Part shown: in pieces, positions 10,302 through 48,093 of the stretch | Layout: each line of letters opens with the position of its first letter | How positions within the stretch are numbered: position 1 is the first letter of the stretch | From: Methanocorpusculum sp. | Lineage (GTDB): Archaea; Halobacteriota; Methanomicrobia; Methanomicrobiales; Methanocorpusculaceae | Assembly: GCA_017399555.1 (NCBI GenBank) | Contig: JAFQBW010000008.1 | Location: forward strand, 1-53,066 | Reading direction: 5' to 3' | DNA length: 53,066 nucleotides | Program-made: the position numbers and the translations under genes | Notes under the pieces: generated by a model | Told to the model about the DNA's origin: nothing | The model's input: only the letters and a program-made list of their open reading frames with translations | Databases searched by the model: none

Positions 10302-10343
10302 TTTCCTTCATACTGAATCGAATCTTTCCCTGACGATACGGAG
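10302..10343 (+). promoter_or_regulatory. CATACTG leader motif, copy A
   Basis: A pyrimidine-rich tract leads to CATACTG at 10309-10315, then TGACGATACGGAG at 10331-10343, 50 bases before the ATG at 10394. It sits directly after the cca terminator. No TTGACA-like -35 is seen at a normal distance. A weak inverted repeat (CCTTCA / TGAAGG) links the first box region with the ribosome site. Confidence 0.55.
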
Positions 10344-10393
10344 CAACATCATTTCAAACACTCAAATATCCAAAGACTGAAGGAGCGTGTTAG

Positions 10394-10576
10394 ATGAAAC
10401 TGAATATCGACGACCTCTGCCGCAAGCACGATTTATTTCTGACCAACCACCCTCAGCGTCCTGCCCTGCTCCTGCTGCTGCAGGATAACGACATGGCCAG
10501 CGATGATGCTGAGGCTGTTGCGGATGCCATCATTGACCTGATGGCGCCCAATGACCATCTCAAGGAGGATGTATAA
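10394..10576 (+). CDS. Small acidic protein, 60 aa
   Basis: AAGGAG eight bases upstream supports the start. It is leucine-rich and acidic (LLLLLQDNDMASDDAEAVADAI), probably helical, with no membrane segment. It is the first gene of the block driven by leader copy A. Its stop is one base before the next ATG, so the two are tightly coupled. Function unknown. Confidence 0.65.
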   Translation: MKLNIDDLCRKHDLFLTNHPQRPALLLLLQDNDMASDDAEAVADAIIDLMAPNDHLKEDV

Positions 10577-10577
10577 G

Positions 10578-11885
10578 ATGATTGAATTCTACGAGGGCGA
10601 GTGTTTTGCCGCCACAGGCATCACCCCCGATATTGAGCGTACCTATGTCCCCGTCTATCTCAAAAGAGGAACGCAACTGTTCTTTCTCACCAATAGGCTG
10701 GTAGCCGAAACAAACGAGACGATGGCGGCGGCCAACATCACTGCGTCCACATTGGAATGCGAAAACATCAAGGCCAGCTTTATCGCAAGTGGATGCCGGT
10801 TCTTTAAGGAGACCGGCACCCATGAAAATCCCCTGCATCTGCTGGACTTTATGAAGGAGCGAAGCTATACCTTTGCCGCATTTGATACAGAGGATATGTT
10901 CCGGTATTCCAACCGCAAAGACGGCTCTGTCCCGTTCGCTGTCTTCCACGGTAATCTGAAAGAACTGTCTGCAGCTTTCACATACAAGATTTTTGATGAC
11001 AGCCTCGTACAGGAACTCAAGCGGCGTATTCTCCCTTTTCTGCGGCAGCGTCCCGGTAAAGGGGACAAATCAGAGCATACCCCTGGCAAGGTCATCAAAA
11101 CCTTCGCAGACTGGCAAAGCTCCGGAGTACGCACCATCGACAAGTACATCTTTCCCGGTGACCATGTAGATGCCACCATCGTCGACCATTTCCGCAACAT
11201 CCTCCTCCCTGCCATCGACAGCCGCGGCTACCTGCAGGCAGGCGGTGAGGCGACTCAGGTAAAGGTCCATTGGCCTGATGGAAAAGCAAGGTATTTGCCC
11301 ACTTATCTCACATTCACCTGCCACGGCCCATACTGGACATTTTGCGGCATCTGCTTCCGGGAAGATACAGTCGACCTGACTGGCATCTATGAGGTATCCC
11401 TGCAGCCGGATGGGTCCTACAGCAATTTCCGACGCCTGCATGACCTCACAGAGCGGGAACGCTACGACATGATGTTCACGGCTGGCACGAGGCCCGACCC
11501 CACTTTGTGCGAGCAGTTGGTAATGCTGTGCAGGGAGAGAGGTACATTCAATCCATTGGATTGCTCTCTCTGGGAGGACCCGGAGCCGGGCGAACCCTAT
11601 CCTTACGGTATTCTCGCCTTTGATGACCAGGCCATGCTCAAGCTGTTTTTCCAGTACGGGAACTGGTCTGCGGGTACTGGCGCACTCTACCATGACCTTG
11701 CCTTTGTTAATCAGGTCAGCGGTGTTGGAGACTGGTGGACACTCAAATATGACCACGGCATTGGCCAGTGGGTGCATTTTGAGAGCATCCACTTCTATCA
11801 CGTCATCCAAAGGGGCGAGTTTGAGCAGTTGATGGAGCGGCTTGACGCAGCCACCATTCCCCAGTGCATCCAATGCGTCTATTGA
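10578..11885 (+). CDS. Hypothetical 435-aa protein
   Basis: The start at 10578 follows AAGGAGG by nine bases; the frame extending to 10551 overlaps the previous gene without a better site. The protein is soluble. It contains a Trp/Cys/His-rich segment in the middle (TFTCHGPYWTFCGICF at about 244-259) and aromatic strands near the C-terminus (GDWWTLKYDHGIGQWVHF). It ends in CIQCVY. No domain is recognised. It is the largest protein of the copy A block. Confidence 0.7.
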   Translation: MIEFYEGECFAATGITPDIERTYVPVYLKRGTQLFFLTNRLVAETNETMAAANITASTLECENIKASFIASGCRFFKETGTHENPLHLLDFMKERSYTFAAFDTEDMFRYSNRKDGSVPFAVFHGNLKELSAAFTYKIFDDSLVQELKRRILPFLRQRPGKGDKSEHTPGKVIKTFADWQSSGVRTIDKYIFPGDHVDATIVDHFRNILLPAIDSRGYLQAGGEATQVKVHWPDGKARYLPTYLTFTCHGPYWTFCGICFREDTVDLTGIYEVSLQPDGSYSNFRRLHDLTERERYDMMFTAGTRPDPTLCEQLVMLCRERGTFNPLDCSLWEDPEPGEPYPYGILAFDDQAMLKLFFQYGNWSAGTGALYHDLAFVNQVSGVGDWWTLKYDHGIGQWVHFESIHFYHVIQRGEFEQLMERLDAATIPQCIQCVY

Positions 11886-11894
11886 GGTGGCATC

Positions 11895-12179
11895 ATGACC
11901 TACTGTGATTTCATGAATATCCTTGATGAACAGGTGGCAAAAACCACCGGCTGCGCGGGACATGCTGCATTCAGAGCCGATGTGGAAGCACTCAAGACCA
12001 TCAACAATGGGTTTGGCCTTCCCGCCATCACTGCCAATGTATGGCTGCATAAAATCTGTGAGCTGTCCGATGCGGACCTCTGCGCCTATGTGGAGCGCTA
12101 CCGACCCGGCCTTTTGGATGCCCGGTATGAGCACTACCCCTTCGTTGGAAAGCCGGTGCCGTCGGAAGCACGCAGATAG
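11895..12179 (+). CDS. Hypothetical 94-aa protein
   Basis: GAGGTGG lies just upstream of the ATG. It is a small, probably helical cytoplasmic protein with a basic C-terminus. It begins nine bases after the previous stop, so it is in the same operon. Not recognised. Confidence 0.6.
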   Translation: MTYCDFMNILDEQVAKTTGCAGHAAFRADVEALKTINNGFGLPAITANVWLHKICELSDADLCAYVERYRPGLLDARYEHYPFVGKPVPSEARR

Positions 12180-12217
12180 GCGTATCATTCTACAAATGAA
12201 CCAAGAAGGAGTTTTTT

Positions 12218-13231
12218 ATGAGCACAAAGAAATCAACACTTAAAAAGCTGGAGCAGTTTCATCCCGGAGACTTCGTGCAGCTTTCTGACGACATCCTCCA
12301 TGATGCCTTCAAAGGACTGCATGGCCGCGTCCTCAAGGTCGTCAAATCCAGATGTATCGTCGCTGTTGCCTGTGAAAACGGCCAGCAATACGACGCATTG
12401 CCGGAAAATGTGATGATAGTCATGCCGGCTACAGCTGCCTTTGCCAAATGCCGTCTTCCTTGGAGCGCAAATGATGACTGGAGCGCATACACCGTCTCCT
12501 TCGGCGCCTACGATGCTTCTGTCTACCAGCGTTTCGGGGACAGACGGTGGGTTCTCTCCTGCAGCCAACTCCAGATTCAGCAGCGGCCTCTGCCAAATGG
12601 AGACCTCCCCTCCCTTCGTGTCGCGGAGGAGGAGTTGCGGACTGCAGCGATGCATCAGCGGGACCTTGCCAACAGCGCCCTGCGCGACCTTGGCATTGGG
12701 ACGGGATTCCGGGTGGATACCCGAATCGGTACCATGGAGGCGTCTCTCATCCAGAACGAAGAACTGCCCGGTGTCTCTATCGACCTGCATCCATTCGATG
12801 GTACTCCCGCCAGCAATCTTCTCTGTCTGCAGCAGGAGGATGACTGCAAACTCAGGGCAACAGTCTATGCGGAGCTTGGCAGCAATCCCTGCGACGGTTC
12901 TGAATGCGGAGACTACTCCCACAGCATTTGCTTTACAAAACCGGGGGAGTCGCCGGACGCGGACATCCATCCCCGGTGGGCCGTCTGCTCCAATAAGACG
13001 TCCCTTTATGAGGCTGCGGCAGAGTACGATTACCGGATGGCGCGGGAGATGATTATTAACCGCATGGTCTCCGGCGGCTATGCTGACCCGGAGAAGAATT
13101 ATCCCGAGGCTCTGGAAGGCGCAGTGTCCGAATACTTGAAAAACCGTAGTTTCGGTTGCGATGAGGACTATTCCCTCAGCGAGGCGATGGCTTGTCTTCC
13201 TTCCTTGGATAGCACAGAACAGGAGGGATAA
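12218..13231 (+). CDS. Hypothetical protein with KOW/SH3-like N-terminus, 337 aa
   Basis: AAGGAG precedes the ATG. Residues ~12-68 (FHPGDFVQLSDD, GLHGRVLKVVKSRCIVAV, then LPENVMIV) look like a KOW/SH3-type small beta barrel, as found in nucleic-acid or ribosome-associated proteins; this is by eye only. The remainder is unrecognised, with a helical acidic C-terminus. The following gene starts one base after its stop (TAAGATG), giving coupling. It is part of the copy A block. Confidence 0.6.
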   Translation: MSTKKSTLKKLEQFHPGDFVQLSDDILHDAFKGLHGRVLKVVKSRCIVAVACENGQQYDALPENVMIVMPATAAFAKCRLPWSANDDWSAYTVSFGAYDASVYQRFGDRRWVLSCSQLQIQQRPLPNGDLPSLRVAEEELRTAAMHQRDLANSALRDLGIGTGFRVDTRIGTMEASLIQNEELPGVSIDLHPFDGTPASNLLCLQQEDDCKLRATVYAELGSNPCDGSECGDYSHSICFTKPGESPDADIHPRWAVCSNKTSLYEAAAEYDYRMAREMIINRMVSGGYADPEKNYPEALEGAVSEYLKNRSFGCDEDYSLSEAMACLPSLDSTEQEG

Positions 13232-13232
13232 G

Positions 13233-13517
13233 ATGCTTTTACCGGGAAAATATGTATCCGAGAAAACAGAGCACTATTTGGACAGCTACCGTATCGTCAT
13301 GGAAGTAAAGGAGACAGAGAAATCCTACATATTCACCCTTATCGACTTCCAGAGCCGGTACAGCGCCGGACATATCGAATTGCTGTTTTCCAAGTCAAAA
13401 CGCTTCCTGCTGCGGAAAAACAAAGGCGGACATGCAATGCGTGTGTGGGATAACAAGAGTTTCACCTTCTATCCATATCAGGCAGGGATTCCGTATTTAT
13501 TTGAAAAGATAGACTAA
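13233..13517 (+). CDS. Hypothetical 94-aa basic protein
   Basis: AGGAGGG eight bases upstream places the start at 13233, just after the stop of the previous gene. The C-terminal half is basic and aromatic (SKSKRFLLRKNKGG, then FTFYPYQAGIPYLF), consistent with a beta-rich nucleic-acid or protein binder. This is the last gene of the copy A block and is followed by a strong terminator. Confidence 0.65.
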   Translation: MLLPGKYVSEKTEHYLDSYRIVMEVKETEKSYIFTLIDFQSRYSAGHIELLFSKSKRFLLRKNKGGHAMRVWDNKSFTFYPYQAGIPYLFEKID

Positions 13518-13522
13518 CACGA

Positions 13523-13549
13523 AAAGGGCTGGCGAAATGCCGGCCCTTT
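13523..13549 (+). terminator. Terminator ending the copy A block
   Basis: AAAGGGCTGGC / GCCGGCCCTTT with a 5-base loop and CCCTT after it. A and T runs flank the stem on both sides. Confidence 0.8.
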
Positions 13550-13552
13550 CCC

Positions 13553-13581
13553 TTGCGTTTATATTCGATTTCCGATAAAAT
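13553..13581 (+). promoter_or_regulatory. Sigma-A-like promoter for lipoprotein gene
   Basis: TTGCGT, a 17-base spacer and TAAAAT, 30 bases upstream of the ATG at 13612 and immediately after a terminator. Confidence 0.65.
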
Positions 13582-13611
13582 ACTTGGTAAGCTGGTCACA
13601 GGAGGTTTCCC

Positions 13612-14112
13612 ATGAAAAAAGCTATTATTGCACTCCTCTTTATCGTGCTACTGGCCTCCTTAACTGGTTGCCAGAAAACGTTGAGGGGCACAGATGCGTT
13701 GATTGAAAGAGCGCGGGAAGAACTCTCAAGCGCCGATGCCGACACAATCGAACTGCAGTACGCCGGTCTGTGCAGTAGAGATGACGACGCCCTCATTTGG
13801 TTTATCTCCGGCAACGAGTATCAGGCTCACACGTATCTCCCTATGGAGTGCGCCATTGTTGGTGAAAATGAATATACCTATACGCACACCTATAGCCCCA
13901 TGGAACGCGGCATGGATATCGCGGTTGTAGAATGGAAAGGCGGCTACTGCTTCCTCGTCAATAACGAGAAGTGCTGCACCATCCGAATCACAGACAATAC
14001 GGGAACATGAGACGAGAACATTGAAAAGGACGCTTACCCGTACATCTTCTACAATAATTTGATTCCATCCGAATACCTGTTCCTCGATGCAGAGGGCAAC
14101 GAAGTACCATGA
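13612..14112 (+). pseudogene. Lipoprotein gene with in-frame TGA
   Basis: GGAGG precedes the ATG. The product has a lipoprotein signal (MKKAIIALLFIVLLASLTGC, modified Cys at residue 20). Translation stops at TGA 14008-14010 after 132 codons. The same frame then continues for 33 protein-like codons (DENIEKDAYPYIFYNNLIPS and on) to a second TGA at 14110-14112. The continuation resembles the rest of the protein in style, so the first TGA looks like a recent premature stop. Read-through or a natural short form cannot be excluded. Other genes here use TGA as a normal stop. Function unknown. Confidence 0.6.
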
Positions 14113-14140
14113 ACCGATACCGGGGAGGCTTCCACCAGCG

Positions 14141-14905
14141 ATGAATTTCTTGAAAGAACTGCTGTTTCAAAAACGAATAAAGGACCTGCAGAAAAAAATC
14201 AACGCTCCTGTACGCGGCCTTCACATAGAGGGTGACCATAGCTACCTGGCCACCTATACGGAACTCAAGAAAATCCTTGCCCGTCGTGTTGACCCAATCC
14301 TGTCAGCAGAAGGCTATTCCTATGATGGAGCCTATCAATGGATAGGCCCGTGGGAGAATGACCACAGCCGAAGAATCATAAAAACAAGCCTGCTGAAAGG
14401 CGCCGGCGTAATCTATATGTGGGGCCGCTGCTACGATTTTATCCCTGTCATTTCTAATGACGGGAAATCCTATCGGTATCAGCGTACAGACAAAAGCGCC
14501 GGTCTGCAGATGTTCCCCCGTCCAACTGACTTGCACGCCGCTCCTATCCCTGAGATGAAAGGCGTCCCAAAGGAGTTCAGCTTATTTGGCCCCGATTTGG
14601 CAGATGTGGAGCGTCGGACATTCGATGCTTTTATTGAGACGAAGCCGCTTTGGGAGACTTGGTTTGGCCTTACAGAGGGATACGAGGCCGCTATTGCGGA
14701 ACTCGATAGGCAAATCAACTACGGGTACAGTGTAAACTGGCCTGCCGTTGCGTATGTAAAGGCTTTCCTCCTTGCAGTTCACGAGGGTCCGGATATCGGG
14801 CTGGAAGCCTTGAACACATATTTTCAGGACGAATACTATACGCCTCCTGCAGAAGACATGCAGGATAAGATACGAGCGAAGCTCCTGTCTCTACCAAAAC
14901 TATAA
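14141..14905 (+). CDS. Hypothetical 254-aa protein
   Basis: The start at 14141 follows GGGGAGG by 11 bases; an in-frame ATG at 14087 would lie inside the tail of the interrupted lipoprotein gene. The N-terminus is basic and helical. The middle has Trp-rich strands (AYQWIGPWENDH, GVIYMWGRCYDFIPV). It is soluble and of unknown family. A distant resemblance to DUF4304-type proteins in layout was considered, but no diagnostic motif is present. Confidence 0.6.
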   Translation: MNFLKELLFQKRIKDLQKKINAPVRGLHIEGDHSYLATYTELKKILARRVDPILSAEGYSYDGAYQWIGPWENDHSRRIIKTSLLKGAGVIYMWGRCYDFIPVISNDGKSYRYQRTDKSAGLQMFPRPTDLHAAPIPEMKGVPKEFSLFGPDLADVERRTFDAFIETKPLWETWFGLTEGYEAAIAELDRQINYGYSVNWPAVAYVKAFLLAVHEGPDIGLEALNTYFQDEYYTPPAEDMQDKIRAKLLSLPKL

Positions 14906-14919
14906 ACATCTCCACAGGG

Positions 14920-14946
14920 AAAGGCTGGCGAATCACGCCAGCCTTT
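14920..14946. terminator. Bidirectional terminator
   Basis: AAAGGCTGGCG / CGCCAGCCTTT, an 11-bp perfect stem between convergent genes. Confidence 0.85.
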
Positions 14947-14966
14947 CTTGCAGTCATACCTTATTT

Positions 14967-15954: not shown

Positions 15955-15981
15955 GTCCCTCTTTCTTTCATACTGCAGTAT
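15955..15981 (+). promoter_or_regulatory. CATACTG leader motif, copy B
   Basis: CTCTTTCTTT precedes CATACTG at 15969-15975, which is part of the perfect palindrome ATACTGCAGTAT (15970-15981). The second box is reduced to GAAGAAGGGAG (15992-16002), which here is also the ribosome site of the gene at 16011. It is the shortest member of the family. Confidence 0.5.
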
Positions 15982-16010
15982 CAACGCTATTGAAGAAGGG
16001 AGCATAACAA

Positions 16011-16343
16011 ATGGGCGTTAAACGCAAGGAACACACAGCATCTGAAATCAACGGTTTCTGCGAAGCAATCCTCCGCAGCATCGACCGGGAGAAGGTCCGC
16101 GGCTTCCACCCCTGGCAGTTCAGCGGCTCCGTTGCGCTGGATGACACGACCCTCATTGTCGCAACAACAAAGCAGTGGCGGGGCTATGTGGTGGAAATGC
16201 GGTTCTTTACCGATGAGCCGCCGCGATATCGCCATCGAATCGACCATCTGACCATCCGGTTGTCTACCAACTCCTATTCCAAAGAGGCGCTGGTAGAGGC
16301 CATCCGGCGTCTTCTTGAAAAGGAGGCGAAGCGGGATGCGTAA
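16011..16343 (+). CDS. Hypothetical 110-aa protein
   Basis: GGGAG nine bases upstream. The small, basic soluble protein has a W/F-rich centre (FHPWQFSGSV, QWRGYVVEMRFF) and a helical C-terminus. It overlaps the next gene by eight bases. It is the first gene of the copy B block. Not recognised. Confidence 0.6.
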   Translation: MGVKRKEHTASEINGFCEAILRSIDREKVRGFHPWQFSGSVALDDTTLIVATTKQWRGYVVEMRFFTDEPPRYRHRIDHLTIRLSTNSYSKEALVEAIRRLLEKEAKRDA

Positions 16344-16998: not shown

Positions 16999-17013
16999 AT
17001 ACGCCTATCACCG

Positions 17014-17047
17014 GCCGGACCCATGATGGGTCCGGCTTCTTTTTTTC
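17014..17047 (+). terminator. Strong terminator
   Basis: GCCGGACCC / GGGTCCGGC with a 5-base loop, followed by TTCTTTTTTTC. Confidence 0.9.
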
Positions 17048-17049: not shown

Positions 17050-17133
17050 TCTGCGCTTCTTTCATACTGGCTTTGGCTATATCTGACTTGATGATGGGAG
17101 ATACCAATTCATCACACAGAAATACAAAGCCAG
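17050..17133 (+). promoter_or_regulatory. CATACTG leader motif, copy C, with long-range stem
   Basis: CGCTTCTTT precedes CATACTG at 17063-17069. The second box is TGATGATGGGAG at 17089-17100. A perfect 9-bp inverted repeat joins CTGGCTTTG (17067-17075) to CAAAGCCAG (17125-17133), which lies immediately before the AAAGGA ribosome site of the gene at 17150. The second box lies in the loop. Confidence 0.6.
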
Positions 17134-17149
17134 AAAGGAATCACGCAAT

Positions 17150-17509
17150 ATGTTCCGACGCAGAGTAGTTTTTATCGATGCCGCGGGAACCGCCTACATC
17201 TCCCCGGAGTTCAACGGTGATAAGGCGGAGATGGAGTATTTCCGTCTCTCCGACAGTTGTGATGTCAACTGGATGGAGATACAGGATACGTTCCGCCAGT
17301 GCAAGACTATCGAGGAGTTTAAAACCGCCTGCATCACGGCGCAGGGCTTCTATCATTCCTCGATGCCAAATCCCGACCCGGAGCCGCCGGCGCCTGCCGT
17401 CCCTGTCAGCGAGCTGGAGGCACCGCCCAAATGCGATGTCATCGTAGTCATCACACCAAGGGACTGCTACTACATCCATCAGATGGAGGTGAAGCGGGAT
17501 GATGCTTGA
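17150..17509 (+). CDS. Hypothetical 119-aa protein with Pro-rich linker
   Basis: AAAGGA is upstream. The N-terminal ~75 residues look folded (RRRVVFIDAAGTAYISPEF). A proline-rich linker (PNPDPEPPAPAVP) leads to a short hydrophobic strand (CDVIVVITPRDCYYIH). It is the first gene of the copy C block and overlaps the next gene by 11 bases. Not recognised. Confidence 0.6.
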   Translation: MFRRRVVFIDAAGTAYISPEFNGDKAEMEYFRLSDSCDVNWMEIQDTFRQCKTIEEFKTACITAQGFYHSSMPNPDPEPPAPAVPVSELEAPPKCDVIVVITPRDCYYIHQMEVKRDDA

Positions 17510-18471: not shown

Positions 18472-18510
18472 GAAGGTGTGTGCTGCCGGCACGCACCTTC
18501 TCTTTTTCTC
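18472..18510 (+). terminator. Terminator ending copy C block
   Basis: GAAGGTGTGTGC / GCACGCACCTTC (one G-T pair), then TCTTTTTCTC. Confidence 0.8.
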
Positions 18511-18519: not shown

Positions 18520-18565
18520 GGTTTCCTCCATACTGATGCTGCAATCCCTGACTGACGACATGGAG
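18520..18565 (+). promoter_or_regulatory. CATACTG leader motif, copy D
   Basis: GGGTTTCCTC precedes CATACTG at 18529-18535, then TGACGACATGGAG at 18553-18565 with a 17-base gap. The gene start is at 18608 with its own ribosome site. A short repeat CTCCAT / ATGGAG links the boxes. Confidence 0.6.
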
Positions 18566-18607: not shown

Positions 18608-18853
18608 ATGAAGATTTTTGCTGTCTTCAATTACCCGAACAACGGCCTGCAGCATCATCAGAAGGAAGTACGGTCTGCCCATCTGCAGCTTGGGAACAGC
18701 TACGAGCTGGAGCAAGCTTCTGTCGGCCCCTCCTTCTCTACTGTGGCGCTGTCTGGAATCCAGGGCTGCTTCAACTCCGTCCACTTCGACTTCATCGACG
18801 AAGCGCGGCGCCCTGTTGACATATATGCAATGCCCTGTTTCCGGAACTATTAA
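18608..18853 (+). CDS. Hypothetical 81-aa protein
   Basis: AAAGGAGA precedes the ATG with normal spacing. An overlapping frame opened by the GGAG of the upstream box at 18571 has a shadow-like composition and is not accepted. The product looks like a small beta-rich soluble protein (MKIFAVFNYPNNG, FNSVHFDFIDEA). It is the first gene of a long block of co-oriented genes reaching 22370. Confidence 0.6.
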   Translation: MKIFAVFNYPNNGLQHHQKEVRSAHLQLGNSYELEQASVGPSFSTVALSGIQGCFNSVHFDFIDEARRPVDIYAMPCFRNY

Positions 18854-25643: not shown

Positions 25644-27530
25644 TCACCAAGTCATCTTCTGCACAGCAGCAGAGTCCATGGTGATGTAATAGTGTTCTCC
25701 ATCGTATTCCATTGTCTCGAAGCCATCACCGCTCCCTATCCCGATTTCTTTCAGAAGGATATAGGGATTCTCGGCCTGAGCGTCCACGCGATAGATGTTC
25801 CACGAGAAGGCAGAATTGCGGTAATCCCCCTGTCCGTCCGGCGAGAGCGACATGATACCGAAGGTGCTCTCATCATAGACTTCCCACACAAACTCAAACC
25901 GGTCTTCCGCAGGGATTTCCCCGGGTGAGTCATAGAGCAAACGCGGATTGGCGCTGTCAGAGAAATCAAAGATATCAATGCCGTCTGGTGTGTTGTTATA
26001 TCGGAGATAGACCCCATCACCCATTGAGATAATTGGCTCCAGTTTGCCAAAGGGACTGCCATAACTGTAGATATTAGCCACGCCGCTGACTGCATCGACG
26101 CAAAGGTCTGTGCCACTCATTTCAATTTCCAGTCCGGAAAACTCCACGAAGAACAGCCTTGCCTCCACCCGCACGTCATTTTCTTCCAGCGCGATGGTGG
26201 ATACTGTAGCGATTGTCCGATTCTCCTCCCAGAGCAGGTGGTCCATATCAAAGCGCATCCCATTGTCCAGTGCCAGCGTTTCCCAGTTCGTTTCGCCAGT
26301 GCTCATATTGGCTGTGATGGCCAGCAGTTCCGTCTTCTGGCTGCCGCCCGCGCTGGTCATATATTCCCCGATAATGCGGTAGATGCCGTCTTTTACATTT
26401 ACCGACCGCACATAGGGATAGCTGCCGTCCGGAAGCATCCCATCGCTGACCCGGACGCCCCCTTCCAGCCCCATCAGTGCCGCTGTGCTGATTTTCCCCG
26501 TGTAGTCAAAGCCATCACCTGTAGCGAAGGTGTAGATATCCGGATGCAGCACAAGCTTCTCTGTAGCTGTCTGTGTGACGATTGCCTGCCAGCCCGGGCC
26601 GTAAAACGCCTCCTCGATATCGCCGTAGAATGCCTGCTTATCCACGATGCCGCCGGAAGCCACGTCGATAATGGTAGTCGCAATATACTGCACGCTGGTC
26701 GGCTCGCCCAGGATGCAAACCTCATGGTTTTCCCATGGGATTTGCTCGCCGTTTTGGGAAAGCTCCGGCATGTATTCATCTGTGTCGTCCAGCCGGGACC
26801 AACCGCAGGCACAGACGCCATCCGACGTCATAAGATATAGCTTGTCGTCAGACACATAACAGGCCACCATGCTGCCAAGCTGGATAAATTCATCTGTCAG
26901 CACAGGAGACGTCGGGTTGGAAAGGTCATAGGTCGTCACCCGCACACTGCGTTCCTCATCCAGCTCTGAACCACCACTGACAAAGCTATCCACCAACACC
27001 AAACGGTCTCTGGCGAGGAACAGCTGCTCCGCTTCTCCTGCAATGCCCGACGCCGCTGCTGACGTCATGCTGCCAAGTTCTGATACCACCACTTGCCCTT
27101 GTCCGATGTGGTAGCCATACCCTTGATGTCCCACCAACTTCTTCCCCTCGATTATGTGCTGGCTGACGGCTTCGATATCCGGCGTAAAGCTACCGTCCGC
27201 CCCCAGAGTAGCTGCATGGTAGTCATTACTGCTCAAATAAGACAGAAGCTCCTCCAGCGTAGCATAGGTGTCCGATGTCGCCAATGCCACAGGCGGGTCG
27301 CTGCTGTCTGGCGGCACAACGACAGGACTGTCCGGTGTTGGGGGAACGGGAGGTGTGCTCCTCCATACATGTAGTCCAAATGCGCTGGCTGCGACCAGGC
27401 AGACACAGGCGGCCATGGCGCCCCACCGCCTCCAGTATCCGTGCATTTTCTTTGCTGGCGTTGTCTCACTGCGCTCCAGCAATTCATTCCCGATATGGTT
27501 CAGACCTCGATACAGGTCATTCCGATTCAT
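25644..27530 (-). CDS. Membrane-anchored beta-propeller protein, probable sigma-factor partner
   Basis: The 628 residues start with a ~30-residue cytoplasmic part (NRNDLYRGLNHIGNELLE), then a membrane helix at about 37-55. A Pro-rich stalk (STPPVPPTPDSPVVVPPD) leads to a large external domain. That domain has repeated strand motifs (VVVSELGSM, VRVTTYDLSNPTSPVL, TPDGIDIFDFSDSANPRLLY) as in the PF09826 beta-propeller family. Its ATG overlaps the end of the ECF sigma gene by 14 bases. Position and topology suggest it controls that sigma factor, although no classical anti-sigma zinc motif is visible. Confidence 0.75.
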   Translation of the reverse strand: MNRNDLYRGLNHIGNELLERSETTPAKKMHGYWRRWGAMAACVCLVAASAFGLHVWRSTPPVPPTPDSPVVVPPDSSDPPVALATSDTYATLEELLSYLSSNDYHAATLGADGSFTPDIEAVSQHIIEGKKLVGHQGYGYHIGQGQVVVSELGSMTSAAASGIAGEAEQLFLARDRLVLVDSFVSGGSELDEERSVRVTTYDLSNPTSPVLTDEFIQLGSMVACYVSDDKLYLMTSDGVCACGWSRLDDTDEYMPELSQNGEQIPWENHEVCILGEPTSVQYIATTIIDVASGGIVDKQAFYGDIEEAFYGPGWQAIVTQTATEKLVLHPDIYTFATGDGFDYTGKISTAALMGLEGGVRVSDGMLPDGSYPYVRSVNVKDGIYRIIGEYMTSAGGSQKTELLAITANMSTGETNWETLALDNGMRFDMDHLLWEENRTIATVSTIALEENDVRVEARLFFVEFSGLEIEMSGTDLCVDAVSGVANIYSYGSPFGKLEPIISMGDGVYLRYNNTPDGIDIFDFSDSANPRLLYDSPGEIPAEDRFEFVWEVYDESTFGIMSLSPDGQGDYRNSAFSWNIYRVDAQAENPYILLKEIGIGSGDGFETMEYDGEHYYITMDSAAVQKMTW

Positions 27531-28086
27531 CGATGTATCCCTCCTTCATCAGGTGAAGTTTCAGTTTCTTCCGTGTCCTTGTGAGAATCACGGAGACGTT
27601 CTTTTCTGTCAGTCCGTACCGGTCTGCGATGACGTTCATGGTCTCCGTGTAAAAGTATCTGCGGATAAACACGTTTCCGTCCCGCTCCGGCAGAGCCTGC
27701 ACGAATCGATGGAGGCTGCGGCCAAGCTCCTGATACTCGTAGTCCCGCTCCACGTCCGACTCGCTGGCGAGGCATTCCGCCAGCTCGTCCAGCACCATCA
27801 CGATTTCCCCGCCGCCACGTTTCTCTGTGTTCCTTGCGTGGAAGCGGTTGAAGGACAGGTTCCGCGTTATCCGGGCGAGGAACAAGCGGAGCCGCTGCGG
27901 GCGCTGCGGTGGCATGGCGTTCCATGCGTTGAGCCAGGTATCGTTGACACATTCCTCTGCGTCTTCATGGTTATGCAGGATATTATCCGCGATTGCAAAG
28001 CAGTAAGCGCCATACTTCTCGTTTGTTTCTGTTATGGCGTGAGAATCTTTCCGCCAATACAGGTCAATGATTCGTGTATCGTCCAC
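27517..28086 (-). CDS. ECF-type RNA polymerase sigma factor
   Basis: A GTG start at 28086 follows AAGGAGGAGG; a longer frame has no site. Of the 189 residues, about 15-80 fit sigma region 2 (EKYGAYCFAIADNIL, HEDAEECVNDTWLNAW) and about 120-180 fit region 4 (VFIRRYFYTETMNVIADRYG, EKNVSVILTRTRKKLK). It would direct RNA polymerase to a small set of promoters. It is coupled with the downstream membrane propeller gene. Whether it recognises the CATACTG leaders is unknown; its own promoter looks sigma-A-like. Confidence 0.88.
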   Translation of the reverse strand: MDDTRIIDLYWRKDSHAITETNEKYGAYCFAIADNILHNHEDAEECVNDTWLNAWNAMPPQRPQRLRLFLARITRNLSFNRFHARNTEKRGGGEIVMVLDELAECLASESDVERDYEYQELGRSLHRFVQALPERDGNVFIRRYFYTETMNVIADRYGLTEKNVSVILTRTRKKLKLHLMKEGYIDESE

Positions 28087-28154
28087 AGCAGGCCCTCCTC
28101 CTTTCCTCAATCTAAGGGACCCCTTCACCCTATAAGACAGGATATCATAGCTCT

Positions 28155-33159: not shown

Positions 33160-33174
33160 AATTCTGACATACTG
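33160..33174 (+). promoter_or_regulatory. Possible CATACTG box without second box
   Basis: CATACTG at 33168-33174 lies 32 bases before the small membrane protein gene. The upstream sequence is less pyrimidine-rich and the second box is not recognisable, so membership in the leader family is doubtful. Confidence 0.3.
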
Positions 33175-33205: not shown

Positions 33206-33331
33206 ATGATTGCGGTAGGAATCATCTGCCTGATGGTTGGCGCCATCTTTGGATATGTGGCCTGCGCGATGCTCACAGTCGCATCCCGGGCCGACGACGC
33301 CATGGAACAGGCGCTGGAACAACACAAGTAA
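33206..33331 (+). CDS. DUF3789-like small membrane protein, 41 aa
   Basis: The 41 codons encode one membrane helix (IAVGIICLMVGAIFGYVACA) followed by a short SRADDAMEQALEQHK tail. This matches the remembered pattern of DUF3789 micro-proteins found on Firmicutes mobile elements. The ribosome site is weak. It is followed by a strong terminator. Too short for default gene finding, but the helix and ending look real. Confidence 0.6.
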   Translation: MIAVGIICLMVGAIFGYVACAMLTVASRADDAMEQALEQHK

Positions 33332-42197: not shown

Positions 42198-42200
42198 CAC

Positions 42201-42743: not shown

Positions 42744-42771
42744 GATAGTGAATATGAAAGGGGGCTGCACC

Positions 42772-43134: not shown

Positions 43135-43156
43135 ACTTATATCGCATGGGCGCCCT

Positions 43157-43185
43157 GCCGGCACAGGCTCTTTCCCTGTGTCGGC
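43157..43185 (+). terminator. Terminator after XRE gene
   Basis: GCCGGCACAGG / CCTGTGTCGGC (one G-T pair), then TTTGTC. Confidence 0.65.
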
Positions 43186-43259
43186 TTTGTCATTCCACCA
43201 TACTGTTGTGAACTGCTCAATGACGCACGGAGGATATGAGTCCATGCGACAAGCAGTAT
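43184..43259 (+). promoter_or_regulatory. CATACTG leader motif, copy E, with inverted repeat
   Basis: CTTTGTCATTCCAC precedes CATACTG at 43199-43205, then TGACGCACGGAG at 43221-43232. ATACTGTTGT (43200-43209) pairs with ACAAGCAGTAT (43249-43259) with a one-base bulge, placing the second box in the loop. Confidence 0.6.
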
Positions 43260-43282
43260 TAACACACAGGAGGAACAAAGAA

Positions 43283-43471
43283 ATGCAGGAATACCGCAGA
43301 GTCATGGTGAAGCGCTACGGTTTCGCCCAAATCCCCGCCGATTCAGATACAGAGGCACTGGAGGAAGTCAAGTCAATGAGCCACAGTGACTTTGACTGGG
43401 GTGACGTGGATACGGATGACGCTGAAGTTATCGACGTGTTGGACGAACACGGGAACTCCATTCAAAGCTGA
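43283..43471 (+). CDS. Small acidic protein, 62 aa
   Basis: The start at 43283 follows AGGAGG. An in-frame ATG at 43244, ten or so bases after the GGAG of the second leader box, would add 13 residues and is a real alternative. The C-terminal half is very acidic (DFDWGDVDTDDAEVIDVLDE). It is the first gene of the copy E block and its stop overlaps the next start (TGATG). Confidence 0.6.
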   Translation: MQEYRRVMVKRYGFAQIPADSDTEALEEVKSMSHSDFDWGDVDTDDAEVIDVLDEHGNSIQS

Positions 43472-44052
43472 TGGATGCCATGATAGACCGTAATTTGCCG
43501 GCACAGCGCATTGAAACGGCGCCAGCATCGCCTGCAGATACACAGGCGCAAAATACAATTTGGTGGTCGTCATCAAACATTATCTCCCCGGCATCCTTCC
43601 TCGCCCTCCCGGATAATCGGGGAATCCCCCACGAAAGGCTGGTGTCGGAATGGCGAAATTTCTATGCCTTGCACCAGCTCCTGCTCTCCATCGGAGGGCA
43701 CGAGACCTGTTTCCCACCGGCTGAGGAGGACATAGAGGCCATACTAAAGCGCGGCCGCTTCTATCCCGGCCACTCAAGGATGATGGTGGGCAAGCCGAGC
43801 CAGTGCCACAGGAACAGCTGCGAACTGTGGCTGAATAACCGCCGGCAGTTCCAGGTCAGTATCGCCACCGGCTACGCCCTTTCCACAGACGGGCTTTGGC
43901 GCCAGCACACATGGCTCATCCATCGCTACAGGACCCGGACACAGAGCCGGCTGCGCCTTATTGAGACCACGGAGAAGCGGCTTGGCTACTTCGGGTTTGA
44001 GATGACCGAGGAAGAAGCGATGGCCTTCTGCAGCAGCAACGGATTATATTGA
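43471..44052 (+). CDS. Hypothetical 193-aa protein
   Basis: It starts in the stop codon of the previous gene. The first 30 residues are low-complexity; the remainder is basic and aromatic (ELWLNNRRQFQVSIATGYAL, WRQHTWLIHRYRTRTQSRLR). It has no membrane segment and is not recognised. The basic C-terminal half suggests nucleic-acid contact, but this is only a composition-based guess. Confidence 0.6.
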   Translation: MDAMIDRNLPAQRIETAPASPADTQAQNTIWWSSSNIISPASFLALPDNRGIPHERLVSEWRNFYALHQLLLSIGGHETCFPPAEEDIEAILKRGRFYPGHSRMMVGKPSQCHRNSCELWLNNRRQFQVSIATGYALSTDGLWRQHTWLIHRYRTRTQSRLRLIETTEKRLGYFGFEMTEEEAMAFCSSNGLY

Positions 44053-44063
44053 AGGAGGCAGAA

Positions 44064-44393
44064 ATGGAAACAGAATATCGGAATACTGTACCGGACGCTG
44101 TTCTGACGCAGCGCTCCGGAGAAGACGGATTTACAAAATCAGAGATTGTGGAGATGCTGGATAAACTCGTCCTGTCTCCTGACGAGGAAGTGGACGCCAT
44201 TTATCTGGAAGGCGACTCCGCCATCGCCTTCGGTTTCATCCGCATGGCAATCAGCGAGGAGAAGCTGTCCTTTGAGACCGGACAGCAGTCAGACTTCGGG
44301 CGTCAGGCCCTCACAGTCGTCAATGACGTTACTATGGAGAACGAGGACTGCCGGTACAACTTCGCAGGCGTTGATACGCTGATGTACTATTGA
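44064..44393 (+). CDS. Hypothetical acidic 109-aa protein
   Basis: AAGGAGG sets the start at 44064. An acidic soluble protein (MLDKLVLSPDEEVDAIYLEG) with a mixed fold. It is in the copy E block with short gaps on both sides. Not recognised. Confidence 0.6.
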   Translation: METEYRNTVPDAVLTQRSGEDGFTKSEIVEMLDKLVLSPDEEVDAIYLEGDSAIAFGFIRMAISEEKLSFETGQQSDFGRQALTVVNDVTMENEDCRYNFAGVDTLMYY

Positions 44394-44409
44394 CAGGAGG
44401 ATATCTGTT

Positions 44410-44682
44410 ATGCTCTCCCCTAAAGACGAAATGCAGCGCATTTTTGACCGGCTGCGGAAAATTGAGGCGGTCATCAATCCAACCAATGCCCCCTTCTACT
44501 TTCCTCTGGAGCATGAGCTGTGCGCCGAACGCAACCAGCTTATCACGGCCTACTATGAACTAAAGCGCTACGGAGACTGGTTTTTCAAACGTCATCCGAG
44601 CATCCTCATCGGAATGCATCTCACAGGAGCCACAGCTCTGCAGGCACGCATCAATCACGCCGTCGCCTGGAACACACGCTGA
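44410..44682 (+). CDS. Hypothetical helical 90-aa protein
   Basis: AGGAGG lies 11 bases upstream. It is mostly helical (MQRIFDRLRKIEAVI, then CAERNQLITAYYELKRYGDW). It is the last gene before a strong hairpin at 44695-44729. Not recognised. Confidence 0.6.
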   Translation: MLSPKDEMQRIFDRLRKIEAVINPTNAPFYFPLEHELCAERNQLITAYYELKRYGDWFFKRHPSILIGMHLTGATALQARINHAVAWNTR

Positions 44683-44694
44683 ATAAAAGCTTTG

Positions 44695-44736
44695 CCTCCT
44701 TGTTCTTCCATACTGGCAGAACAAGGAGGTGCTTTT
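44695..44736 (+). terminator. Terminator with CATACTG in its loop (copy J)
   Basis: CCTCCTTGTTCT / AGAACAAGGAGG form a 12-bp perfect stem followed by TGCTTTTC. The 11-base loop holds CATACTG (44709-44715). The 3' arm contains AAGGAGG, so the hairpin could also hide the ribosome site of the HD-GYP gene. Confidence 0.7.
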
Positions 44737-44744
44737 CTATTTCT

Positions 44745-45314
44745 ATGAACACTGTTATCAACGCACTGCTTATCGCACTTGACGCCAAGGACCCCGCCAG
44801 CGCCGCACACTGCCGGAACGTAGCGCTCATGACTGGCAGACTCACAAAACACATGGTTCTGCCGGACACGTTTTCATCGCTTCTCCAGTCAGCCGCACTC
44901 ATCCACGATGTTGGGAAAATCGGTATTCCAGACGCCGTGTTGAATTACCCCTGCTCCCTCAATCGGCCAGGCATGGCCATTATCCGCTCCCATCCGGACA
45001 TCGGCGCGCAAATCCTTTTGAACGGGGATATCCCCGACTCCATCATTGCCTGCGTGCGCCACCATCATGAGTTCTGGGATGGGTCTGGATATCCATCCGG
45101 TCTTTCCGGCCAGGACATACCACTTGGCGCCCGTATTATCACTGTGCTGGATGCCATTGACGCTATGTGCGGGCAGCGGTGCTATAGGGGCGCCATGCCT
45201 CTGAGCGACTGTCGAGGGGAAATCCTCCGTCTACGTGGAAAATGGTATGACCCGCAGGTGGTTGATACGCTCATGGAAAACTGGGAATCGGTCACTGACG
45301 GATTATACCCCTGA
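44745..45314 (+). CDS. HD-GYP domain protein, putative c-di-GMP phosphodiesterase
   Basis: ATG 44745 is the first methionine, although AAGGAGG lies 15 bases upstream, rather far; a non-ATG start in between is possible. The 189 residues are one HD-GYP domain: H22, the catalytic pair H54-D55 (LIHDVGKIGIPD), and HHHEFWDGSGYPSGL followed by PLGARIITVLDAIDAM. Such enzymes open cyclic di-GMP or related dinucleotides. No sensory domain is attached. It may balance the GGDEF protein at 28263. Confidence 0.88.
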   Translation: MNTVINALLIALDAKDPASAAHCRNVALMTGRLTKHMVLPDTFSSLLQSAALIHDVGKIGIPDAVLNYPCSLNRPGMAIIRSHPDIGAQILLNGDIPDSIIACVRHHHEFWDGSGYPSGLSGQDIPLGARIITVLDAIDAMCGQRCYRGAMPLSDCRGEILRLRGKWYDPQVVDTLMENWESVTDGLYP

Positions 45315-45321
45315 CGCTTTT

Positions 45322-45373
45322 CTGTCTTTTATTCTTTCATACTGCCATATACCTGCTCCAAAGATGACAGGAG
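45322..45373 (+). promoter_or_regulatory. CATACTG leader motif, copy F
   Basis: TTTTATTCTTT precedes CATACTG at 45338-45344, then TGACAGGAG at 45365-45373. The GACAGGAG part starts 21 bases after the first box, exactly as in copy G. The gene starts at 45408 with its own AAAGGAG site. Confidence 0.6.
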
Positions 45374-45407
45374 AATATATCTTACGGCGATTGAAAGGAG
45401 ACAGAGC

Positions 45408-46169
45408 ATGAGTTATACTATCGAATACAACCGACAATTCCTGCGCTCCGAGCGAGGCATCACACCCGTCTGGCTGTCTGGGAGCAACAATGTATGGGAA
45501 CCGAGACCCTATGGTCGGGAACGCCGGTGCCGGGAATGGAATTGTTTTATGAACCTGCTTGGCGCTCCCGAGGCAGAAATCATGGAGGCTGTCCAGAATA
45601 TGTGCGGCGGACCCTATCAGGAGCATTGGAAATCAAATGGACGGTGGGTGGATGACGCCGGGCTTATCCGGTGGGCAAAAAACGGCATCAGGGACGCCTG
45701 TACCGTTGAGGAGCTGCTGTCACGCAACTGGTGGTCCTCCCTCTCCGCCTATCTCCACATCTGGTCCCGGGACCTGAAAGACTCCATTGAGCTGCACAGC
45801 CGCATTGACGGAACGGCCGCTTTGGACGCCTTCATTGACAAGGCCAGAGCGCGCATCGGCAGCAAAGCGACCGGGGAGAGCATTTATCCCCATATCGTTT
45901 TCCCTGAGGAGCAGTTCCATAAGCCCCACGCCGTAGAGCGCTCTGCACCAAGGGGCGGCGACACCGCTTTACAAATCACCAGCGGAGAGCATACCGGCGC
46001 ATACATCCATAAAATCACGCGCCACAGCTACTGGTACAGCAAGAACCCAAAAGATGCCCGGCTATACTGCGGCGTCAATGCCGCAAAGCTGGCGGCAGAG
46101 CGTCTGATGAAACGGCATGAGACACTAAACCTTGTACCCGTGGTCTTAAAGGCCCCGGGCACTGTGTAA
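45408..46169 (+). CDS. Hypothetical 253-aa protein
   Basis: AAAGGAGA lies upstream. It is a basic soluble protein with a Trp-rich N-terminal half (TPVWLSGSNNVWEPRPYGRE, then RNWWSSLSAYLHIWSRDLK) and a basic C-terminus. It is the first gene of the copy F block, 19 bases before the macrodomain gene. Not recognised. Confidence 0.6.
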   Translation: MSYTIEYNRQFLRSERGITPVWLSGSNNVWEPRPYGRERRCREWNCFMNLLGAPEAEIMEAVQNMCGGPYQEHWKSNGRWVDDAGLIRWAKNGIRDACTVEELLSRNWWSSLSAYLHIWSRDLKDSIELHSRIDGTAALDAFIDKARARIGSKATGESIYPHIVFPEEQFHKPHAVERSAPRGGDTALQITSGEHTGAYIHKITRHSYWYSKNPKDARLYCGVNAAKLAAERLMKRHETLNLVPVVLKAPGTV

Positions 46170-46188
46170 TATACGGAGGTAGTCATTC

Positions 46189-46665
46189 ATGAAATATATC
46201 ATTGGAGATATTCTCACACCCAACCCTTTGGAAGACCATCTCGTTATCGTTTGTCATCAGGTCAACTGCAAAGGCGTAATGGGCGCCGGGCTTGCCCGTC
46301 AGATTCGAGAAAAGCATCCCGACGTCTTCTCCCTCTACCGAGACAAATGCCTGCAGATTGCCGCAGGTATCGGCGGCCTTGGTGATGTGCAGTTCTGCTC
46401 TGTGATTGCGGATGCCGGCTATGTCGTAGCCAATGTCTTCGGGCAGGATGGCTATGGACGGGGAAAGCAGTTTACGGACTATGCAGCGCTGCGCAAGGCT
46501 TTTGAACATATTGCCATGGGTTTCCCGACCAGCACAATCCGCATCCCCTACCTCATGGGCTGTGGACTGGGCGGCGGGAATTGGGACGAGGTGCTTCGTA
46601 TCATCGAGGAGACACTTGATTCCAAAGGCATCGACGTGGAAATCTGGCAGCTCCCCGCGGACTGA
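46189..46665 (+). CDS. Macrodomain protein
   Basis: The 158 residues form one macrodomain: MKYIIGDIL at the start, the ligand loop VCHQVNCKGVMGAGLARQIR, and GCGLGGGNWDEV near the end. Macrodomains bind or remove ADP-ribose; the NCKGVMGAGLA loop resembles those that hydrolyse ADP-ribose from DNA or protein (DarG/TARG1-like). No ADP-ribosyltransferase toxin is seen beside it. GGAGG lies upstream, and a terminator follows. Confidence 0.88.
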   Translation: MKYIIGDILTPNPLEDHLVIVCHQVNCKGVMGAGLARQIREKHPDVFSLYRDKCLQIAAGIGGLGDVQFCSVIADAGYVVANVFGQDGYGRGKQFTDYAALRKAFEHIAMGFPTSTIRIPYLMGCGLGGGNWDEVLRIIEETLDSKGIDVEIWQLPAD

Positions 46666-46686
46666 TTTCTCTCAACATCAAAAGAG

Positions 46687-46717
46687 GGCCGTCCATCACC
46701 ATGATGGGCGGCCTTTT
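46687..46717 (+). terminator. Terminator after macrodomain gene
   Basis: GGCCGTCCATCA / TGATGGGCGGCC (one G-T pair) then TTTTCC. Confidence 0.82.
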
Positions 46718-46723
46718 CCATGC

Positions 46724-46769
46724 CCCTGTTCATGCATATTGTAGACGTACCCCTTACTGATGCATGGAG
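46724..46769 (+). promoter_or_regulatory. CATACTG leader motif, variant copy H
   Basis: CCCTGTTCATG precedes CATATTG at 46735-46741 (one base changed), then TGATGCATGGAG at 46758-46769 after 16 bases. CATGCAT (46731-46737) and ATGCATG (46760-46766) form an inverted repeat. Confidence 0.5.
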
Positions 46770-46801
46770 TTGGAAATATGATTATCAAAGGAGACATGGA
46801 A

Positions 46802-47926
46802 ATGAAGTATAAGAGCAACGCCCAGACCATCGTCATCGACTTCGATGATACCCTGTGTGAATTTGTACGGCCGGCTCTTGACCGGGTAAATCAGAAACAT
46901 GGTTGGGATGTCCGGTACGACGACATCACCGACTGGTATTTCTCCACCTTCCCGGAAGAAGTACGGAAGGCTATCTATCACGAATTCTCCCGACCTGAGC
47001 TGTACGAGTCCCAGACGCCCATCCCCGGCTCTGGTGATATGCTGCGGCATCTCATTGACGCCGGCCATGATGTTATCATCACCTCCTCCGCCTATCCCGA
47101 GTATATGACGACACGAGCCACGCAAATTATGACCCTGTTCCCCATGGTGTCGCAGGAAAACATCCTCCTGGGAACCCGGAAGGATACCGTGCAGGCAGAC
47201 ATCATGCTGGACGATGCCAGACACAACATTGAGCGGACACGGGCCAAGTATCCCATTCTTATCCGCCGGCCATGGAACCGCTCTATGACGGGACTGCTCT
47301 CCGTCAACAGCTTTGAGGATTTTCTGTGCCTTGTAGAACGCATCGCCGCACAGAACCCGCAGCCCATCCTCCGTCCGGACAATGAACCGAGCGTTATCTG
47401 TCTCGTGGCGCCGTCCGGGGCCGGAAAATCTGCCATTGCCCGTGCCCTATCTAAACACCCCGCATTTGGCATCCCCAAATCCATGACCACGCGGGAAAGG
47501 CGCCCGGATGAGCCAGTCGATGCGTACCGGTTTGTCAGCGACGCCACCTTCGAGCAGCACCTGAAAGCCGGACATTTTCTGGAGACGACCGTCTATTCCG
47601 GCCATAAGTACGGCACACAGAAAGAGGAAATCACGCGGCTCCTGGACAATGGCCAGCATGCGGTCATTCCCATCGACATGTGCGGTGCCGCGTCTCTGAA
47701 AGCGGCTTTTGGAGACCGGGCCATCCTTGTATTCGTGCGCAGGGACCGTGCCGCTGTCATTCAGGACATTGTTGCCCGCCGGGTGGATGATGCGGATAAA
47801 GTGCGTCGCATCATGAGCCTGGACGCCGAGTACGCCAATGAGGACCTGTGCGACTTCACACTGGTCAACAACAGCACCCTGCAGGATGCGGTACATCGCA
47901 TTACCGCCTATCTGAAAACAGCCTGA
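46802..47926 (+). CDS. 5'-nucleotidase (HAD) fused to guanylate kinase-like domain
   Basis: ATG 46802 lies eight bases after AAAGGAG; the in-frame ATG 46778 with GGAG eight bases upstream is an alternative. Residues ~8-185 are a HAD phosphatase of the 5'(3')-deoxyribonucleotidase type (VIDFDDTLCEF with D13 and D15, then TSSAYPEY and IMLDDARHN). Residues ~195-374 are a guanylate kinase-like domain (VAPSGAGKSAIARAL, KSMTTRERRP, then a YSGHKYGT-type segment). One half would remove phosphate from a nucleotide and the other add one. It is the only gene of its transcription unit. Confidence 0.88.
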   Translation: MKYKSNAQTIVIDFDDTLCEFVRPALDRVNQKHGWDVRYDDITDWYFSTFPEEVRKAIYHEFSRPELYESQTPIPGSGDMLRHLIDAGHDVIITSSAYPEYMTTRATQIMTLFPMVSQENILLGTRKDTVQADIMLDDARHNIERTRAKYPILIRRPWNRSMTGLLSVNSFEDFLCLVERIAAQNPQPILRPDNEPSVICLVAPSGAGKSAIARALSKHPAFGIPKSMTTRERRPDEPVDAYRFVSDATFEQHLKAGHFLETTVYSGHKYGTQKEEITRLLDNGQHAVIPIDMCGAASLKAAFGDRAILVFVRRDRAAVIQDIVARRVDDADKVRRIMSLDAEYANEDLCDFTLVNNSTLQDAVHRITAYLKTA

Positions 47927-47944
47927 TATACTCAACAACACAGC

Positions 47945-47971
47945 AGCCGTCCGGCACCATGCCGGGCGGCT
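47945..47971 (+). terminator. Terminator after the fusion gene
   Basis: AGCCGTCCGGC / GCCGGGCGGCT (one G-T pair), then TTGATTTTG. Confidence 0.8.
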
Positions 47972-48002
47972 TTGATTTTGGGATATTAGCCTGTCGCTGC
48001 GC

Positions 48003-48081
48003 CCCGTTTCATTCACCCATACTGCTTTTGTGATTTGATTCTGACGACAGGAGCGCAGGCAAATCAACACTATCACAAAAG
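48003..48081 (+). promoter_or_regulatory. CATACTG leader motif, copy G, with long stem
   Basis: CGTTTCATTCAC precedes CATACTG at 48018-48024. CTTTTGTGAT (48025-48034) pairs perfectly with ATCACAAAAG (48072-48081), with an inner TTGATT / AATCAA pair. TGACGACAGGAG (48042-48053) sits in the loop, and the ribosome site GGAGG follows the stem directly. This is the best-formed copy. Confidence 0.65.
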
Positions 48082-48093
48082 GAGGTCTATCCC

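Follow-up and report, generated by a model that had tools for sequence, protein, structure and literature searches.

A repeated promoter-like leader on contigs of a probable bacterial megaplasmid in the genome bin of an archaeal methanogen

The repeated leader in the window

Contig JAFQBW010000008.1 (53,066 nucleotides; genome bin GCA_017399555.1, classified as Methanocorpusculum sp.), analysed over its full length and called the window below, carries a two-part sequence repeated in front of genes: box 1, which contains CATACTG, and box 2, which contains GGAG. A sequence-only reading of the window had reported seven copies of CATACTG and a CATATTG variant, and all of these were found at the positions it gave. 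CATACTG alone occurs 15 times in the window against 5.5 expected. Alignment of the eight reported copies revealed an invariant TTC 3 bases 5' of CATACTG, which is absent from that reading and sharpens the signal to a refined core, TTC-N3-CATACTG. The pattern TTCNNNCATACTG has nine matches in the window, all on the + strand, whereas shuffled sequences gave a mean of 0.10 and a maximum of 1. Two of the nine, at 44703 and 33162, are additional to the reported copies.

All of the boxes, stems and genes of this paragraph are on the + strand. The first box 1 (TTCCTTCATACTG, 10303-10315) fronts a gene at 10394-10576, and its box 2 (TGACGATACGGAG, 10331-10343) is followed by a second Shine-Dalgarno (SD) sequence further downstream. 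The form TTCTTTCATACTG is found three times. At 15963-15975 it fronts the gene 16011-16343, with box 2 (GAAGAAGGGAG, 15992-16002) serving as the gene's own SD; at 17057-17069 it fronts the gene 17150-17509, and a leader stem TTTGGCT...AGCCAGA (17072-17134) encloses box 2 (TGATGATGGGAG, 17089-17100); at 45332-45344 it fronts the gene 45408-46169, with box 2 (AGATGACAGGAG) at 45362-45373. The copy TTCCTCCATACTG (18523-18535) fronts the gene 18608-18853 and has its box 2 (TGACGACATGGAG) at 18553-18565. In front of the gene 43283-43471 lies TTCCACCATACTG (43193-43205), followed by a leader stem ACTGCT...AGCAGT (43212-43257) that encloses box 2 (TGACGCACGGAG, 43221-43232); this leader was counted as class I in the stem tests described below, with an ATG close behind GGAG. 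The last exact copy (TTCACCCATACTG, 48012-48024) fronts the gene 48094-48294, and the stem TTTTGTGAT...ATCACAAAA (48026-48080) encloses box 2 (TGACGACAGGAG, 48042-48053). The variant box 1 (TTCATGCATATTG, 46729-46741), with box 2 TGATGCATGGAG visible at 46758-46769, fronts a single gene at 46760-47926 (or starting at 46802) that joins 5'-nucleotidase (NT5C) and guanylate kinase domains. Of the two additional copies, TTCTTCCATACTG (44703-44715) precedes an HD-domain-like gene (identity by eye) that starts at about 44745, and a near-perfect inverted repeat, CCTTGTTCT...AGAACAAGG, at 44680-44745 holds both this copy and the SD of that gene. The other, TTCTGACATACTG (33162-33174), lies 31 bases 5' of a 41-codon open reading frame (ORF) at 33206-33331 (MIAVGIICLMVG...), and no box 2 was scored behind it.

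Several details of the sequence-only reading were adjusted. Box 2 had been credited to six of the seven exact copies and was scored behind all seven, with GGAG 23-27 rather than 24-28 bases past CATACTG. Genes do follow the motif, at about 29-80 bases instead of 35-85. Intrinsic terminators had been placed before nearly all copies, which is too generous: a strong one lies directly upstream of five of the eight (10261-10286, 17013-17037, 18472-18500, 43157-43185 and 47945-47971), and the terminator scan gave counts barely above those of its shuffles. The lack of a TTGACA at normal spacing was confirmed, since TTGAC at gaps of 10-21 before CATACT is present in 0 of 40 upstream regions that hold CATACT. 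No Rfam family reached its gathering score in the window.

The element and its relatives

In the whole bin (2.02 Mb) there are 33 copies of TTCNNNCATACTG against 1 of the reversed pattern. At the level of sequence this count speaks for a signal above background, as first proposed, and together with the window counts makes it larger than had been stated. Nine contigs (C1, C9, C18, C36, C42, C44, C51, C53 and C65, the window; about 221 kb) hold 29 of the 33; the remainder are three copies in a tandem repeat on C23 and one copy on C10. Because the nine contigs were picked for carrying the motif, the claim that they belong to one element needs support independent of it. This is given by homologues of genes of pRUMAL01, the 420,706-bp megaplasmid of Ruminococcus albus 7, which are present on eight of the nine (none on C53), while a 15-kb piece of C10 had no match.

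The element encodes a DnaE-type polymerase, a CHC2 primase-type protein, an NAD-dependent ligase (LigA), UvrD and RecD2-like helicases, RNase H, an exonuclease, an SSB-like protein, a SpaA-type surface protein, a sigma-70-family factor and a Tad-type operon. The motif precedes the genes for the DNA polymerase, the primase, the SSB-like protein, RNase H and the sigma factor. Much of this gene set is found in pRUMAL01, mostly in the same order, and the shared replication and secretion backbone places the element in a pRUMAL01-type family. The serine-rich ATPase, DnaE, the primase-type protein, SSB and the Tad operon are common to the element, pRUMAL01 and pB6464 of Alkaliphilus (435,827 bp), and all three have one or more sigma-70 factors and a repeated promoter-like motif of their own. 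The ATPase is 69% identical to its counterpart in pRUMAL01 and 46-48% identical to that in pB6464. It is a DUF87 protein, which we take to be VirB4-like, with a very long serine-rich insert (L034 16274-19870, - strand) and no Pfam match at E 0.001.

Two things link the window to the pRUMAL01 family: the motif, and a Y-family DNA polymerase (51713-53066, + strand, cut by the contig end) with 60% identity to a protein of pRUMAL01. Elsewhere in the bin, the three stretches sampled are archaeal (methanogenesis marker 14, archaeal LeuRS and archaeal GluRS), so the bin of an archaeal methanogen seems to have taken in a bacterial megaplasmid of the pRUMAL01/pB6464 family, represented by the window and at least eight more contigs. 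The listed contamination of the bin is only 0.98% despite these contigs. Since the bin is that of an archaeal methanogen, the comparison genomes of the same genus, order, class and phylum (232 genomes in one search) are by inference archaea and serve as background sequence only.

An unbiased count of gapped words placed TTC N3 CATACT first in the upstream regions of the element (29 of 148; shuffle maximum 5). In pRUMAL01 two words shared first place in this count, one of them being TTC N3 TATAAT (49 of 278; at most 13 in shuffles). Over the whole of pRUMAL01, TTC and TATAAT are separated by N3 in 82 matches, against 10-33 for each of 21 other gaps; in pRUMAL02, from the same R. albus strain, the N3 form is not enriched in the 150 kb compared (5 against 1-8 at other gaps). 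The motif recurs before many operons of the element, and its TATAAT form is not enriched in 150 kb of pRUMAL02, the replicon that stood for the rest of the cell's DNA in this comparison. A box like box 2, TGAT(A/G)A-N1-2-TGGAG, occurs 23 times in pRUMAL01 (0 reversed), once in the 150 kb of pRUMAL02 and not at all in 98 kb of pB6464. One strict form of the entire leader has 16 matches in pRUMAL01 and 0 in the same part of pRUMAL02, so that a related element, as had been suggested as a check, keeps a like bipartite leader with a different core. The two megaplasmids share this layout although their base composition differs (about 51% G+C in the element and 38% in pRUMAL01).

The third member differs more. 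A word search in a 98-kb discovery part of pB6464 suggested GTTATGTTAAA (12 matches, 0 reversed), which is unrelated to both the motif of the element and the TATAAT form of pRUMAL01. Two held-out stretches of 50 kb contain 5 and 9 copies (reversed, 0 and 0), and many copies stand shortly before an SD and a gene (by eye). Elsewhere GTTATGTTAAA has no match in the element or in 150 kb of pRUMAL02, and pRUMAL01 has a single copy (1 reversed). Two sigma-70 factors are encoded in the portion of pB6464 that was read. On this evidence each of the three megaplasmids appears to have its own repeated promoter-like signal; that of pB6464 may be used host-wide, the Alkaliphilus chromosome being outside the comparison. 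One stretch of pB6464 (L090 160-4047, - strand) contains 25 tRNA genes, and the copies of GTTATGTTAAA at 1128 (-) and 2458 (-) are immediately followed by a tRNA-Ile and a tRNA-Ser gene, respectively.

Box 1 as a candidate promoter

The logo and the spacing counts were made from 27 of the 29 element sites, leaving out C1 9872 and the copy at 33162; the latter was later judged genuine from its position 31 bases before the small ORF. The logo consists of TTC and CATACTG with weak T-richness upstream and no conserved -35. A weight matrix built from the 27 sites gave 45 matches at a score of at least 14, against 4.0 in shuffles. In the pRUMAL01 logo a -35-like TTTTAT lies 17 bases 5' of TATAAT, and A and G are the commonest bases 7 and 8 positions after it, as would fit a -35, a -10 and a start site.

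Distances to the start codon, measured from CATACTG or TATAAT, were compared in 27 pairs of homologous genes from the element (matrix score at least 14) and pRUMAL01 (exact motif). The motif precedes 10 genes of the element and 10 of pRUMAL01, and both members of 5 pairs. The distances in these five (element/pRUMAL01) are 40/39 for the RecD-like gene, 31/31 for the Tad operon, 38/39 for DnaE, 25/23 for a gene on C36 and 83/63 for a DHH gene; three more pairs, with a one-mismatch site in pRUMAL01, gave 39/39, 125/122 and 73/18. When distances were re-dealt among the eight pairs, the agreement was as good in 0.36% of trials, the one-mismatch sites having been chosen after looking.

SigA promoters have a -10-like hexamer and a start-site geometry such as those of box 1. 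From the sequence we infer that CATACT would be the -10 hexamer, TTC would lie at about -18 to -16, and the start of transcription would be some 7 bases beyond CATACT. By eye, the nearest SDs begin about 7-10 bases past CATACTG, which fits a start site within that distance. The putative promoter departs from SigA promoters in its TTC at about -18/-16, its CATACT and its lack of TTGACA.

A sigma-70-family factor of 295 amino acids is encoded at 7787-8674 of contig C9. Sigma regions 2 and 4 are recognised in it, its residues 10-249 align with SigA, and on the element contigs it is the only match of its kind at E 1e-4. TTCATACATACTG ends 40 bases 5' of its start codon. This factor is the most likely reader of the TTC-N3-CATACTG motif and would direct RNA polymerase to box 1; since its gene carries the same promoter, it would be self-activating. 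The gene table of pRUMAL01, which may be incomplete, has one annotated sigma-70 factor, and its gene lies within about 6 kb of the RecD-like gene on the circle, as the sigma gene of the element does on C9.

Box 2, the leader and competing explanations

Box 2 would be transcribed, about 10-22 bases into the RNA, and two classes of leader can be distinguished. Where the start codon closely follows GGAG (class I), box 2 is or may be the SD of the gene. In the other class GGAG is enclosed by a stem that would lie near the RNA 5' end, upstream of a separate SD, and the sequence of the stem varies between copies. For the stem test, 72 of 123 core matches (41 from the element, with CATACTG/C/T, and 82 from pRUMAL01) were usable, having GGAG 14-40 bases downstream. 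In leaders with a separate SD the best-stem score was 14.0 in the element and 16.45 in pRUMAL01; re-dealt arms gave 11.75 (n 11, z 3.0, 0 of 500) and 12.76 (n 19, z 6.3, 0 of 500), respectively. Where the start codon follows box 2 there was no signal in either the element (n 20, z -0.3) or pRUMAL01 (n 19, z 1.3). A narrower first version of the test had given z 2.9 (3 of 400) and 4.3 (0 of 400), respectively. Some pRUMAL01 leaders are mutual copies; with one of each kept, z is 6.3 (n 16), and without the strongest hairpin pair it is 4.2 (n 15). The test omitted one leader of the element and two of pRUMAL01 that have no second SD; with these restored, z is 3.0 (1 of 500) and 6.8 (0 of 500). Leader peptides after box 2 were considered and rejected, no consistent start codon being seen by eye.

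The original proposal of a dedicated promoter or leader defining a regulon of the element is the best reading, the motif fronting operons on nine contigs; the two boxes apparently are different things, a core promoter and a transcribed leader element. We hold it somewhat probable that box 1 serves as core promoter across the plasmid, with the plasmid's own sigma factor as its likeliest reader, and that it is coupled to an SD-like or stem-forming leader. A stem-enclosed box 2 would most likely be a ribosome-binding or 5'-protecting stabiliser of the mRNA, by analogy with Bacillus. The 5' stabilisers known there (the aprE, cryIIIA and ermC leaders) have, according to PMC3997798, a stem-loop at the 5' end, an SD close to that end that lacks a start codon, or both. 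The separate-SD leaders resemble them in having, as a group, a stem near the presumed 5' end, and differ in that a single replicon has many such leaders, coupled to a presumed private promoter.

Several observations weigh against this reading. The co-occurrence of the motif in 5 of 27 gene pairs is near chance, and only the matching distances speak for it. pRUMAL01 contains three matches to TTCNNNCATACTG (0 reversed) that are not obviously promoters. By the scoring used, 16 of the 27 logo sites have a box 2 behind them. Taken alone, folding energies are only weakly below those of shuffles (mean z of -0.44 for n 19 and of -0.62 for n 18); among the minimum-energy folds, 1 of 19 and 7 of 18 place GGAG in a simple hairpin loop. 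The sigma proteins of C9 and pRUMAL01 are distant (24% identity over 195 residues), and the 150 bases 5' of the start of the pRUMAL01 sigma gene hold neither an exact motif nor one with a single mismatch. The -10 of pRUMAL01 is an ordinary TATAAT, readable by host SigA, and the element contigs (C1, C9, C18, C42, C51 and the window) carry at least nine ORFs for extracytoplasmic function (ECF) sigma factors.

The TATAAT with its T-rich, -35-like block at 17 bases, and the missing motif before the pRUMAL01 sigma gene, are what would be expected if host SigA read the promoters, with TTC and box 2 either bound by a plasmid-encoded activator or belonging to ordinary promoter context. This is nevertheless unlikely: the core of the element is CATACT without a conserved -35, a SigA-like pair is present in 20 of 148 upstream regions but in only 1 of 29 of those bearing the motif, and the TTC-N3 form is not enriched in 150 kb of pRUMAL02. 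The hairpins of box 2 might instead bind an RNA-binding protein such as CsrA, GGA being in or near a stem loop in many separate-SD leaders. We consider this improbable; the bin has no CsrA family match and hence none on the recovered plasmid contigs, a weak negative because the host chromosome is not in the bin. Slightly less probable still is that one of the ECF factors reads the motif. They are numerous, and the one in the window (27520-28152, - strand) is confirmed by an NCBIfam match, but the same two ECF queries had no match in pRUMAL01, despite its like layout, or in 98 kb of pB6464, and by position 0 of 27 logo sites lie directly before an ECF ORF. Bases upstream of the -10 are usually contacted by a domain that ECF factors do not have, which also counts against such a reader. 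Next after the ECF ORF of the window comes a large protein, perhaps its anti-sigma factor, in which a membrane segment is seen by eye. That the boxes are an operator or a recombination signal, as in cassette-like repeats, is very improbable, for although they are many and several stand right after a terminator and before gene blocks, the copies point to the downstream gene, their start-codon distances agree with those of TATAAT copies in shared pRUMAL01 genes, and the 27 aligned sites are little conserved outside the two boxes.

Plasmids are generally assumed to depend on the promoters of their host. A plasmid promoter read by the plasmid's own sigma factor would offer an expression programme run by a plasmid itself that can be tested directly, and possibly a portable sigma/promoter pair for gut Clostridia; the motif also offers a rule for marking operons in elements whose genes are almost all hypothetical. 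A wider proposal is more tentative, and we put it at somewhat below even: a clostridial megaplasmid family of roughly 0.4 Mb with its own replisome parts, sigma factor, cognate promoter on core operons and leader hairpin, in which the promoter would have drifted into the dialects TTC-N3-CATACTG, TTC-N3-TATAAT and GTTATGTTAAA and would insulate plasmid expression from the host. Plasmid sigma regulons are already known to exist. SigN (ZpdN) of pBS32 in Bacillus subtilis is described, in the portion of PMC6751061 that concerns it, as a plasmid sigma factor whose regulon, DNA replication genes included, is largely confined to the plasmid; it has a self-activating promoter, is controlled by LexA and is lethal when induced, and its promoters read TTTACGTTT... 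with a -10 like GATAAAA/GATATAAA. Measured against that description, the element is similar in encoding a sigma-70-family protein. The motif precedes the gene of this protein but is missing from the 150 bases before the sigma gene of pRUMAL01. The promoter sequence of the element differs from that of SigN, and the element carries its own DnaE and LigA. A private promoter in pRUMAL01-type plasmids was not found in open-licence literature, which is not proof of novelty; an excerpt of PMC4081043 mentions pRUMAL01 in connection with dockerin genes.

In wider searches the exact bipartite pattern was found in 7 stretches among 84,980 species genomes and in 2 viral contigs. Three of these nine matches are one phage-like sequence, and the others, in unrelated taxa, look like chance. 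In a Blautia genome (L049 1835, - strand) a single TTCTTTCATACTG that looks intergenic is followed by a TGATGAATGGAG box, which could be chance. The 31 matches in another genome (G027), first taken as promising, seemingly belong to one long repeated sequence (6 of 31 read); its contig C1 has a long repeat containing TTCGTTCATACTG, probably a mobile element. The Subdoligranulum 'plasmid' OY725880 was set aside as probably chromosomal because its sigma gene adjoins a gene resembling dnaG (by eye). Viral contigs contained no exact pattern of the pRUMAL01 type and no close relatives of the sigma factor or the backbone ATPase, and no motif emerged from loci L055-L057. In the window, a CCA tRNA nucleotidyltransferase gene lies at 8897-10240 and is the sole match in the bin in a protein search.

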